Positions 16,564 through 24,227 of a DNA stretch of 29,472 nt are shown here, piece by piece. The position numbers and the translations under genes were made by a program. Positions within the stretch are counted from its first letter, which is position 1. Every line of letters starts with the position of its first letter. The notes below the pieces were generated by a model that searched no databases, was not told the DNA's origin, and saw only the letters and a program-made list of their open reading frames with translations. The DNA is from a virus: positions 1 to 29,472 of the IMG/VR virus record IMGVR_UViG_3300021438_000057; one strand, given 5' to 3'.

Positions 16564-16638
16564 TGGTTGCGGGGGCAGGAATCGAACCTGCGACATGTTG
16601 CTTATGAGACAACCGATCTACCATTGAGCTACCCCGCG
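16564..16638 (-). tRNA. tRNA with CAU anticodon (Met; initiator-like acceptor end)
   Basis: This is a 75-nt cloverleaf on the minus strand. The acceptor is CGCGGGG paired with CCCCGC, with C1 opposite A72, then A73 and an encoded CCA. The D arm is GCTC/GATC with a C11xT24 mismatch. The anticodon stem is GTTGT/GCAAC with loop CTCATAA (anticodon CAT). The T stem is GCAGG/CCTGC with loop TTCGATT. C1xA72 is the hallmark of bacterial initiator tRNA, and this acceptor matches the E. coli initiator acceptor as I recall it. However, the three consecutive G:C pairs of the initiator anticodon stem are absent. It could be an elongator Met, Ile-lysidine or divergent initiator tRNA. Confidence 0.9.
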
Positions 16639-21244: not shown

Positions 21245-22966
21245 CTAATAAGTTCCACACTTAGCGGCATTCTGCCACTGTTTTTTCCACTTGTCACTAT
21301 CTGTGTGTTTGGGTTGCATTACCACTAAATACCCCAAGGCATCAATAGGATCTTTTGTAGCACCTTTTTGCCCATCTGCACCTGTCCATTCTCTCAGCGA
21401 GTATATCAAGTTTTGACAGTCAGCATGCACCATTAAGCGTGGATAATTTGTTTTTGCATCAAGTGGCTTTTCTCGATCATAACACAAAAGATCGTTAATT
21501 ATAAGCACACGCTCATCCACCGTGACCGCTACACTTGGCGTAAAATGTAGAGGATCGGTAGCATCAGCAAGTAGGTCTAACAATGTTAAACCACCTTCTT
21601 TGCTGACAGTCTCCGAGCCTGCGCTTCTAGGGTCAATATATCGCTCGGCAATTTCTTCCCGTTTGTCAGCGTGAGTCTCAAGATCCCAGATTAACTCGGT
21701 ATATTCATTCACTCCACGGCCAGCTCCTTGGCGTTGTGCAGGGCCAGGTTTACCATCAGCTTTCTCGCTAGGCACAGCCCATTCACCGTAACTGGCATCG
21801 GGAAACTCACGATACACCCAAATTATACCATGCTCATCTACTCGCGCCCAAAGCATGAACCAGTTTCGGGCACCTGCTGGATCTGCTACCATGTAGTTTG
21901 TGCCAGAGACTGCTAGCGTACTGACAGGCTCATGAAAAATGTTTACGTCACCAAAAAGCGGAAATTGACTGCCAGCAGTTTGCTCTGCCCAACCATAAGC
22001 ACGAATCTTAATGTCATGGGTACTTCTGGTCTTGAGCGTCTGCTTCATGCGCTCCCAGTTATTGTAGGGATTTAACTTTGAATGAAACCAGATACAGCCG
22101 TGCTTACCATACACACTCTCGGCGGTATACGGCATGTTGCCAGCAGGTACACCAATCACGTTGTTGTTTGGTAACAACTCAGATTCTTTCCATGTCTTAA
22201 TCTTGCTGGTCGAGATGAACTCCTTAACGACCTGCGTATATCCAAGGATCGGCGTGAAGGTCACGATAAGCTTACCGTTGCGCGTTACTAGTCGATATCG
22301 CAGCGTCTCTAGCCAATCTGCAGGTACAAGTTCGTCACACCATACAAAGTCTACCTCACCACCTTCCACAACCTTGATGTCCTGGCTGTAGTTAAGGAAC
22401 CAAATCTGGTTACCATTATAAACAGCCGTGTTATCCGAGAAGCCGTTCTTCTGCGTCCAGCTTACTTGCGTGTGTCTGCTGCGCTTGGCTTCTTTTAATT
22501 CTTGAGGAAGGTATTTATGAAACACGTTCTGTTGCATACTCACACTTGTCATGTGAGTGGTGTGCAAGCACCAGATGTTTACACCACGCTTGCCAGTCTT
22601 TTCCCGAACCCAAGCTGGCATATTCCCAGAAAGATCAGTTCCCACAAACGCCTGGGCAATTCTTTTGGCAGCATACTCAGTCTTACCAGCTCGATTGCCA
22701 CCAAGAATAAGCAGTTCGTTCTGACGGTCTAACAAACCATCCGCATCAGGCCAAGCCGTCAGTTCCGTTCCATACCTATACGGATCAGTAACTTCTGCAC
22801 GAATACGTTGCTCACGTAGCAAAAACAGGCGCATCGTTTCCTCTGGCCCCACGTTTTTTATCATCTGCAATCGCTGCTCCTCATCTGGAGAAGGCATAAG
22901 TGGATGATCCTGAAGAGGAAAGCCAAGTATCTTTTGTAGCAATTTTTCTTCCGAAACCATTGACAT
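21245..22966 (-). CDS. terL: Terminase large subunit (ATPase/nuclease)
   Basis: This is a 573-aa protein. Walker A is GGNRAGKT at 89-96, the T7 gp19-like form. Walker B with catalytic Glu is VDFVWCDE at about 205-212. A motif III-like coupling segment follows (LIVTFTPILGYTQ, about 233-245). The RNase H-like nuclease domain starts at about 350, with YMVADPAGARNW (first Asp), AERYIDPRS (second acidic site) and KDPIDALGYLV near the C-terminus (third Asp). It pumps DNA into the prohead through the portal encoded 3 nt downstream. Two ATGs are close (M1, M3); I use the first, following TAAAT. It is complete and not frameshifted. Confidence 0.95.
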   Translation of the reverse strand: MSMVSEEKLLQKILGFPLQDHPLMPSPDEEQRLQMIKNVGPEETMRLFLLREQRIRAEVTDPYRYGTELTAWPDADGLLDRQNELLILGGNRAGKTEYAAKRIAQAFVGTDLSGNMPAWVREKTGKRGVNIWCLHTTHMTSVSMQQNVFHKYLPQELKEAKRSRHTQVSWTQKNGFSDNTAVYNGNQIWFLNYSQDIKVVEGGEVDFVWCDELVPADWLETLRYRLVTRNGKLIVTFTPILGYTQVVKEFISTSKIKTWKESELLPNNNVIGVPAGNMPYTAESVYGKHGCIWFHSKLNPYNNWERMKQTLKTRSTHDIKIRAYGWAEQTAGSQFPLFGDVNIFHEPVSTLAVSGTNYMVADPAGARNWFMLWARVDEHGIIWVYREFPDASYGEWAVPSEKADGKPGPAQRQGAGRGVNEYTELIWDLETHADKREEIAERYIDPRSAGSETVSKEGGLTLLDLLADATDPLHFTPSVAVTVDERVLIINDLLCYDREKPLDAKTNYPRLMVHADCQNLIYSLREWTGADGQKGATKDPIDALGYLVVMQPKHTDSDKWKKQWQNAAKCGTY

Positions 22967-22968
22967 AT

Positions 22969-23064
22969 TTAGCCCAATCTAGTACCTTTCCCTTGCAGGT
23001 CAATTGATAGATCTGCCGCGTACCCACTGAACAACCTGAAACACGGACTCACTGGTGAAGACAT
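22969..23064 (-). CDS. Possible 31-aa leader peptide upstream of terL
   Basis: The frame starts MSSPVSPCFRLFSGY at ATG 23064 and stops 2 nt before the terminase start, matching the tight spacing used elsewhere here. On the minus strand its ATG follows a hairpin (23069-23090) whose loop carries AAGAGGAAT, an SD-like string. The peptide has no recognisable domain. It is short enough to be chance; a leader or small regulator is only a possibility. Confidence 0.25.
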   Translation of the reverse strand: MSSPVSPCFRLFSGYAADLSIDLQGKGTRLG

Positions 23065-23068
23065 GGTT

Positions 23069-23090
23069 CCAGCTATTCCTCTTGAGCTGG
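23069..23090 (-). promoter_or_regulatory. Hairpin with SD-like loop before mini-ORF and terL
   Basis: CCAGCT pairs with AGCTGG (6 bp), enclosing CAAGAGGAAT on the minus strand. The ATG of a 31-aa frame follows 4 nt later. A purine tract of this quality is rare in this window. It may control entry of ribosomes for the mini-ORF and terminase gene. Confidence 0.3.
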
Positions 23091-23240
23091 ATTAAAAGTT
23101 GTGGGTGTCGAAGAACTCACAAGTGCTACACAGTCGTCCGCGATAGAGACAATGCTAGGCTCAACGGGTAGCCATGGGCAAAGACTGTGATTGCGAAACG
23201 AGAACGACAACTTATACGAATCGTTATGGTTTTAAAAGTA

Positions 23241-23287
23241 TAGTATTCCCCCAAGATAGGCAGTAATGCTGAGTCTTGGGGGTACTA
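23241..23287. repeat. Long imperfect hairpin
   Basis: TAGTA (23241-23245) and CCCCCAAGA (23248-23256) pair with TCTTGGGGG (23274-23282) and TACTA (23283-23287). That is 14 bp in all, with a 2-nt TT bulge and a 17-nt loop. It lies in the 577-base non-coding stretch between the 152-aa gene and terL, ahead of a chain of smaller hairpins. There is no T-run typical of a terminator on the minus-strand side beyond a short TTTTAA. Function unknown; an RNA structure or protein-binding site is likely. Confidence 0.6.
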
Positions 23288-23337
23288 TGCTCACTCGAAG
23301 TCTTCCTTACCGAATTGATAGGTTTTAGTATTAGTGA

Positions 23338-23473
23338 ACAGTACGCTTCGTACTGTGAGAGCGGAGCAAAGCGTAGCGGGTGAGCGATAGCGAACAACTT
23401 AAGTATCTGCGAGCAGCAGATGCTTACTTTGGCTACAGTAGCCAATGTAGCTACTAGATGCAGCAAAGCTGCA
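23338..23473. other. Chain of short hairpins in non-coding region (candidate structured RNA or replication/packaging site)
   Basis: Several perfect or near-perfect inverted repeats follow each other in 136 bases. They are ACAGTACG-CTT-CGTACTGT (23338-23356), AAGTATCTGC-GAGCA-GCAGATGCTT with one G.T (23401-23425), TTGGCTAC-A-GTAGCCAA (23429-23445), the palindrome GTAGCTAC (23447-23454), and TGCAGC-AAA-GCTGCA (23459-23473). The spacer 23357-23400 repeats AGCG/GAGCG-like strings. The rest of 22967-23543 has no convincing gene. This density is far beyond the rest of the window. It could be a non-coding RNA, an origin, or a packaging site next to terL. Confidence 0.65.
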
Positions 23474-23543
23474 CCCACTTAGCTAGGGAGATTAAAAGTA
23501 TAATGGCATATACTTTCAATTGCTTGTTATGATTGAAACATAA

Positions 23544-24002
23544 CTAAACCCGCTTTAAATATAATTCACCGTTCTTAACGCGAATTACTTGGTTTACTCT
23601 CATGTTAGAGCCTTTTAAGCCAACAAAGACGCGGCCCTTATCTGTTTCGACCCACTTAAAGTTGGCGTGTATCTTCTTAATCTTACACAACTTTACCTGG
23701 CAATGCTCGGGAAACAAGCCATCCAAAGCTGTTGTTTTAGGCGTGTCTAGCGTCATTATAGGCCATTCTTGGGCCGTTTCCTCTGTGGCAGCAGTAGCCA
23801 CACTGACAGGTTGTGCGTCTTGTTTATGTTCAACCCTACTTGGATCAATCACACTTACTCCAAGTATATCGCACCTAAACATGTTTTTAAACGTCTTGAA
23901 GCACTTGCGCTCGACATAATCAACGCCCTTAACATAGTTGCTCAAATTATACGCAGCACCGTCACGCAACTTAACAGCACTCTCGTTAACATTGTATTTC
24001 AT
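23544..24002 (-). CDS. Unknown 152-aa protein with OB-like C-terminus
   Basis: ATG 24002 (MKYNVNESAVKLRDGAAYNL) gives 152 aa; a TTG upstream at 24041 would add 13 residues. The N-terminal ~55 residues are charged, with Cys at two points (ERKCFKTFKNMFRC). The middle (about 60-95) is a Pro/Thr/Ala-rich linker. The end (about 100-152: HCQVKLCKIKKIHANFKWVE, then KGRVFVGLKGSNMRVNQVIR) is basic and beta-stranded. It stands alone between two long non-coding stretches. An RNA/DNA-binding role is suggested by the basic beta end but not shown. A 7-bp stem (24024-24042) lies in its leader. Confidence 0.65.
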   Translation of the reverse strand: MKYNVNESAVKLRDGAAYNLSNYVKGVDYVERKCFKTFKNMFRCDILGVSVIDPSRVEHKQDAQPVSVATAATEETAQEWPIMTLDTPKTTALDGLFPEHCQVKLCKIKKIHANFKWVETDKGRVFVGLKGSNMRVNQVIRVKNGELYLKRV

Positions 24003-24227
24003 ACGCTTTAAAGTCAGACGACTATTGAGAATGTGTCTCAATAAGGAAAAATAGCGCCCAATCTACACAGTAAATCGGCCCTGTAGCCACCTATTCTCGC
24101 TAGCTCAACCAAAGATAACGATTTCAGTGACCCACAGAGGAGCAATATGCTCGCGCTACTCGCTTTTCACATCCCGCTCACATCTGTAGCAACATGTGCC
24201 ACAGTAGTCAAGTGGCAGCAGTAGCCA
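23785..24227. repeat. 16-bp direct repeat, one copy in a gene and one in non-coding DNA
   Basis: GTGGCAGCAGTAGCCA occurs exactly at 23785-23800 (inside the 152-aa gene, coding for part of its linker) and at 24212-24227 in the non-coding stretch upstream. A shorter relative, GCAGTAGCCAC, is at 27965-27975 within the DnaB-like gene. The core GTAGCCA is also enriched around 23.1-24.3 kb. Confidence 0.55.
24024..24042 (-). promoter_or_regulatory. Leader hairpin of the 152-aa gene
   Basis: ATTGAGA pairs with TCTCAAT (7 bp) around a 5-nt loop, 22-40 nt upstream of the ATG at 24002. There is no T-run after it. It may shape the leader transcript; no known class. Confidence 0.35.

Follow-up and report, generated by a model that had tools for sequence, protein, structure and literature searches.

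A conserved, pseudoknotted non-coding RNA and a chain of hairpins beside the large terminase gene of freshwater phages

The window analysed here, a 29,472-nucleotide stretch of viral DNA (IMG/VR record IMGVR_UViG_3300021438_000057), carries capsid and portal genes that resemble those of the SU10 type, and its annotated-like genes are all on the minus strand. Between the large terminase gene terL and the gene upstream of it lie a structured non-coding RNA and a chain of short hairpins (Table 1). AlphaFold2 predicts an N-terminal helix-and-wing part and a C-terminal OB/SH3-like barrel (Z of about 6, insignificant alone) for the product of the upstream gene; the matches listed were all to the barrel, with none among them to the N-terminal part. 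We found no significant Foldseek match for this protein in the PDB and no Pfam or confident PHROG family, and it does not match small-terminase profiles; its position, where a small terminase would usually be encoded, and its predicted HTH-like domain are only suggestive of a small-terminase-like protein. A Shine-Dalgarno-like motif is missing from most gene starts in the window, a trait of some host phyla, and two related contigs (L178 and L179) sit in Verrucomicrobia bins; on these grounds the host may perhaps belong to Verrucomicrobiota. We screened 196 genomes akin to a Verrucomicrobia bin for prophage copies, and the sole hit was a phage-like contig of that bin itself. Amid the structural genes, at 16564-16638 on the minus strand, lies a tRNA-Met gene with a CAT anticodon, and a tRNA is also found in L021 and L064.

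Table 1. Coordinates of the features at the terL locus, as positions in the window.
Feature	Position	Strand	Remarks
terL, large terminase subunit	21245..22966	-	PHROG 2, Terminase_6N
-35 box TTGACA	22960..22965	+	candidate; overlaps terL start codon (ATG on minus, 22966-22964)
-10 box TACCTT	22983..22988	+	candidate; 17 nt downstream of -35 box
Structured non-coding RNA	22994..23317	+	about 325 nt; both ends approximate, set from conservation
P1 hairpin	22995..23016	+	5' end of RNA; 93% of cells paired; double changes in 5/6 pairs
Pseudoknot PK2	23017-23019 with 23140-23142	+	100% paired
P2 hairpin	23024..23055	+	98% paired; double changes in 4/6 outer pairs
Pseudoknot PK1	23062-23066 with 23172-23176	+	crosses P5; 98.7% paired; double changes in 3/5 pairs
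P3 hairpin	23068..23091	+	100% paired; double changes in 7/7 pairs
P4 hairpin	23099..23122	+	95% paired; double changes in 7/7 pairs
P5 helix	23129-23134 with 23184-23189	+	encloses P6 and P7; 97% paired; 3 pairs double-changed
P6	23136-23150	+	inside P5; 79% paired; double changes present
P7	23153-23155 with 23178-23180	+	inside P5; 87% paired; double changes present
Concerted direct repeat, copy 2	23217..23223	.	CGATTCG on minus
Long hairpin	23242..23286	+	98% paired on plus reading
Concerted direct repeat, copy 1	23311..23317	.	CAATTCG on minus
Hairpin chain	23338..23544	.	six perfect stems, 6-8 bp; between conserved RNA and stop codon of minus-strand gene
Hairpin 1 of chain	23338-23356		8 bp, perfect stem, loop 1-8 nt
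Hairpin 2 of chain	23405-23421		6 bp perfect; about 10-11 bp counting one G.T pair
Hairpin 3 of chain	23429-23445		8 bp, perfect stem
Hairpin 4 of chain	23459-23473		6 bp, perfect stem
Hairpin 5 of chain	23495-23516		8 bp, perfect stem
Hairpin 6 of chain	23526-23544		6 bp, perfect stem
Gene upstream of RNA and terL	23544..24041	-	165-aa protein; N-terminal wHTH-like part and C-terminal small beta barrel (predicted)

A sequence-only reading of the window had described at least five consecutive small-loop hairpins beside terL, in a stretch without a gene, and had remarked that the rest of the window has very few such elements. Scanning the whole window for perfect stems of at least 6 bp with loops of 1-8 nt bore this out: six hairpins lie in 23315-23545, roughly ten times the density predicted from the remaining window (0.57 per 230 nt), and dinucleotide shuffles of the chain interval yield 0.4. 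Three of the stem lengths given for the chain (8, 8 and 6 bp) stood, and an 8-bp stem that had been placed after it is present and counted here as its fifth hairpin; the 10-bp stem is perfect over 6 bp and reaches about 10-11 bp with its G.T pair, and the 4-bp stem is trivial. A 14-bp stem reported ahead of the chain (23241-23287; the long hairpin of Table 1) is real but is part of a separate conserved RNA. The absence of a gene also held, in that the 84-aa open reading frame at 23224-23478 (minus strand) overlaps this RNA, and in homologues of the RNA no frame stays open. Stems no more stable than shuffled sequence had been named as a ground for refutation; folded as RNA, 23330-23545 proved more stable (z of -3.2 for the plus strand and -5.7 for the minus strand); folding as DNA gave six hairpins in the chain region. 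A multi-stem non-coding RNA had been among the meanings offered for the chain, and this holds for the region next to it; the named hairpins themselves lie 3' of the core of that RNA and their sequence is not conserved. Of the other meanings offered, neither a replication origin nor an anti-defence decoy gained support from the analysis.

The conserved RNA is a block of approximately 300-340 nt, with about 72-80% identity, that lies directly upstream of terL in relatives of this gene, of which we collected 80 loci and then 80 more (terL identity mostly 66-99%). Homologues were found with nhmmer and covariance models; with a profile, 162 of the 169 loci having enough upstream sequence proved to carry the RNA at this place, the seven negative loci being six from an RNA-less group and one 42% relative. 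A DNA-pattern scan independent of terL recovered 42 stretches, all 42 upstream of terL, and a second, looser pattern recovered 14 loci carrying the RNA, all of them with terL. Each record examined had exactly one copy (20/20). Many freshwater phages carry the RNA between two packaging-region genes. Strict linkage of this kind would also fit a cis element. Some of the loci from the looser pattern have intein-like inserts in terL: in L236 (4413-6527, plus strand) and L275 (211-2889, plus strand) the gene is interrupted in frame exactly at Walker A (GGNR / GKTE) by inserts of two sizes that begin with C and end with HN or KN before S, and the insert in L275 also holds a 237-aa HNH-like open reading frame on the opposite strand.

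As expected of a structured non-coding RNA, the block has no protein-coding signal: none of the 44 sequences has a fully open frame, and the length of an indel run is not a multiple of three in 431 of 459 cases. Rfam 15 (4,227 families), searched at the gathering score on both strands of the window, matched only a tRNA outside the RNA region. The Rfam search that the sequence-only reading had called for thus matched no family in 22960-23560, where lax settings gave only CRISPR-DR34 (E value of 2.2, 17.2 bits versus 35), and eight relatives yielded tRNAs only. A literature search found no paper that describes such an RNA, and DNA similarity searches found no meaningful relatives among named phages and plasmids. 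The closest terL among named phages, at 30%, is that of phage C75C1, in which the upstream genes abut terL and the covariance model R2 detected no RNA. The RNA appears to represent a family of large, pseudoknotted RNAs of phages that has not been described before and is absent from Rfam 15.

We evaluated covariation first on a 31-sequence alignment with a 65-pair structure that includes two pseudoknots. In this structure 94.5% of cells were paired, compared with 80.6% after shuffling and 32-42% when partners were slid; both sides had changed in 36 of the 65 pairs, with a covariation score of 0.426 versus 0.170. On the tree, branch-level double changes numbered 93, and 0-4 once partners had been slid. 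For the plus-strand core, 95.3% of cells were paired, with a covariation score of 0.549 versus 0.197. One pair of PK2 is C-G in 20 sequences and U-A in 11, the remaining two being invariant, and the inner helix of the long hairpin shows double changes. Some pairs are weak or wrong, such as one in P6 with 26 mismatches, and no helix around the second repeat is consistent across clades. Compensatory changes are therefore present beyond what phylogeny and shuffle controls produce. Covariation, which the sequence-only reading had proposed to look for, is overwhelming in this RNA, next to the chain; the chain itself offers a single compensatory series (see below). With the strand evidence that follows, these data show by computation that the RNA is conserved, non-coding and pseudoknotted, that it has been kept by compensatory changes and that it is better explained on the plus strand.

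Our initial model was that the block is a minus-strand leader of terL, that is, a cis-acting 5' leader for autoregulation or translational control. The RNA always lies immediately upstream of terL and in its orientation, with a gap of about 15-50 nt to the start codon, the genes of the window share this strand, and a U.G intermediate in the hairpin chain suits it. We dropped the model because, on the minus reading, tree events from Watson-Crick pairs to A.C outnumbered those to G.U by 33 to 11, and because the plus strand folds better; an A.C on the minus strand is a G.U on the plus strand. The consensus fold reached -157.8 kcal/mol on plus, with 208 G.U and 28 A.C cells, and -143.9 kcal/mol on minus, with 116 G.U and 108 A.C cells, and the median z for single-sequence folds was -2.63 on plus and -1.75 on minus. 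The raw cell count on the minus reading (99 G.U, 60 A.C) points the other way but is misleading, because a few weak pairs are fixed as U.G. The strand evidence therefore favours plus, opposite to terL.

A candidate promoter on the plus strand is in keeping with this orientation. Among relatives, the -35 box is exactly TTGACA in 41 of 49 and TTGAC in 46 of 49; the aligned -10 hexamers, chosen as the best of three spacings (16-18 nt), have A at position 2 in 44 of 45 and T at position 6 in all 45. A promoter score of at least 9 was attained by 36 of 49 relatives on plus, by none of 49 on minus and by 3% of shuffles. P1 follows the end of the -10 box by about 6-7 nt. By sequence alone, this is what a sigma70-type promoter looks like: TTGACA, a spacing of 16-18 nt and a TATAAT-like hexamer at a fixed place. 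Because the terL start (ATGTCAA) and the -35 box overlap in sequence, part of the conservation of the box could be coding; in L160, L161, L168 and L236 the box is retained as TTGACG or TTGACT outside the terL start codon. The data favour a candidate sigma70-type promoter with a -10 box of the TANNNT type, overlapping the terL start codon, that would drive the RNA on the plus strand, and because of this overlap transcription of the RNA would diverge from terL. A terL leader is accordingly unlikely: the G.U/A.C asymmetry and consensus energy point to plus, the promoter is on plus with none scoring at least 9 on minus in that stretch, and the conserved structure does not contain the terL start. 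The earlier hint of plus-strand transcription, taken from one G.T pair in the chain, turned out to apply to the conserved RNA, for which both the asymmetry and the promoter agree with it, and the chain itself is mixed.

The RNA contains two 7-nt direct repeats that change in concert. The 5-nt core is identical between the copies at 130 of 133 loci, or 43 of 44 after removal of redundancy, compared with about 31% expected by shuffling. Eleven variants of the repeats occur, the copies lie 88-104 nt apart, and L002 provides a half-changed case. We rejected the idea that the repeats form a promoter or iteron in wide use, as there was no enrichment within the window. In nut boxB sites and operator pairs, two copies are recognised by one protein, and by analogy the simplest idea is that one protein might recognise both copies here. 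A pair of identical, fast-drifting 7-nt segments might instead mark a regulatory RNA aimed at host or rival functions, such as a decoy, a defence inhibitor or an antisense regulator with the repeats as seeds, and the RNA is optional in one clade. We consider this improbable: a pairing partner for the repeats was found neither in the RNA, terL or the flanks nor as an enriched motif in 16 near-complete phage genomes, and the strict linkage to terL is unexpected of a decoy.

In a midpoint-rooted terL tree, the phages without the RNA form one clade (support of 0.996) that branches from within the RNA-bearing phages, which makes one loss the simplest history. Searching whole records of this clade with blastn and the covariance models R1 and R2 detected no RNA; the same models recovered diverged copies elsewhere at 75-124 bits. 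In these phages the upstream gene abuts terL, which lacks ATGTCAA at its start and begins ATGAATCC or ATGTCTGAT, and the TTGACA box is gone. Loss in one clade means that the RNA is dispensable for this terminase type.

We compared the RNA with known phage RNAs. GOLLD and ROOL, the large, ornate RNAs known from phages and prophages, are located near tRNA islands and exceed ours in size, with more than 800 nt in many members of GOLLD (PMC12286853). The RNA described here is likewise phage-encoded, large and multi-helix, with pseudoknots and strong covariation, but it has about 325 nt, is fixed between an HTH-type gene and terL and has no Rfam match. The manA and wcaG motifs of cyanophages are cis-regulatory and occur in the 5' UTRs of a variety of metabolic genes (PMC2864571); they too are structured motifs that first came to light in phage sequences from metagenomes, whereas our RNA is tied to terL and apparently runs the opposite way. 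With the phi29 pRNA it shares a packaging-related context, and intermolecular loops are conceivable; however, the pRNA loops are complementary and the repeats here are identical, and we found neither an Rfam match nor two complementary loops, the RNA containing no complementary partner. By the features tested, the RNA belongs to neither GOLLD/ROOL nor phi29 pRNA. Motors of the phi29 type are not known to have this terminase. That the RNA functions as a component of the terminase packaging machinery, in a pRNA-like role though unrelated, with its repeats held by the HTH/OB-like protein or TerL, is quite unlikely in our estimate. A DNA-level packaging site (cos or pac), with the repeats as small-terminase sites and the hairpins as extruded DNA, is very unlikely, though it could be an additional role: the position between an HTH-containing gene and terL, the six hairpins on DNA folding and repeats that may resemble protein sites co-evolving with a protein would suit it, but G.U is tolerated far above A.C on one strand, which is unexpected for DNA hairpins, a promoter would be superfluous and the repeat spacing is variable.

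The chain behaves differently from the RNA. Its sequence is common only to near-identical phages, alignments with other relatives starting further in, so that the conservation looked for by the earlier reading was not found. Hairpin richness recurs: in the interval that separates the conserved RNA from the upstream gene, 42 non-redundant relatives have 60 perfect hairpins versus 12.5 expected, with a median fold z of -2.5. The hairpin sequences vary by clade, however, 10 of the 42 have none, and L043 and L048 have an interval of just 2-7 nt that lacks them, which indicates that the hairpins are dispensable. In alignments, read by eye, with L001 and L002, the two nearest relatives possessing the interval, the outer pair of hairpin 3 forms a compensatory series (window T-A, L002 T-G, L001 C-G), and most remaining differences lie outside stems. 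This series is G.U-tolerant when read on minus. The strand evidence from the chain is therefore mixed, the G.T pair pointing to plus and the series and fold z-score to minus. Among the hairpins, the minus strand of 23354-23392 has repeated CGCT units (CGCTATCGCTCACCCGCTACGCTTTGCTCCGCTCTC), and similar CGCT-rich stretches occur at the equivalent place in L004, L005, L075 and L080.

Taken as a whole, these observations are probably best explained by a stand-alone plus-strand RNA with its own promoter, a 3' hairpin chain and action in trans. A sigma70-type promoter of its own would transcribe the RNA of about 325 nt from the plus strand. With the RNA on plus and the upstream gene on minus, the chain lies tail-to-tail between them and would be the interval 3' of the RNA where its transcript meets the convergent transcript of that gene. 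Its hairpins may stop both transcripts or protect their 3' ends, and the chain is most likely a 3'-end or stop region for both. Like intrinsic (rho-independent) terminators it is located between converging transcripts, but it has no U-tract, and no G+C-rich hairpin followed by a T run was called on either strand of 23338-23544, so it would not act as a classic terminator. The missing U-tract, the better z-score on minus and the minus-tolerant T-A/T-G/C-G series speak against this overall explanation. Our best guess, made tentatively, is that the RNA may act in trans, alone or as an RNA-protein complex, to serve the packaging region, and that a phage protein, either the neighbouring HTH/OB-like protein or TerL, may recognise the twin repeats.

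Covariation across dozens of distinct sequences supports an apparently new RNA family. The fixed place of the RNA, a candidate promoter in the terL start, a clean natural loss and the concerted repeats make direct tests feasible. If the RNA takes part in packaging, RNA involvement would extend from phi29-type motors to terminase motors.
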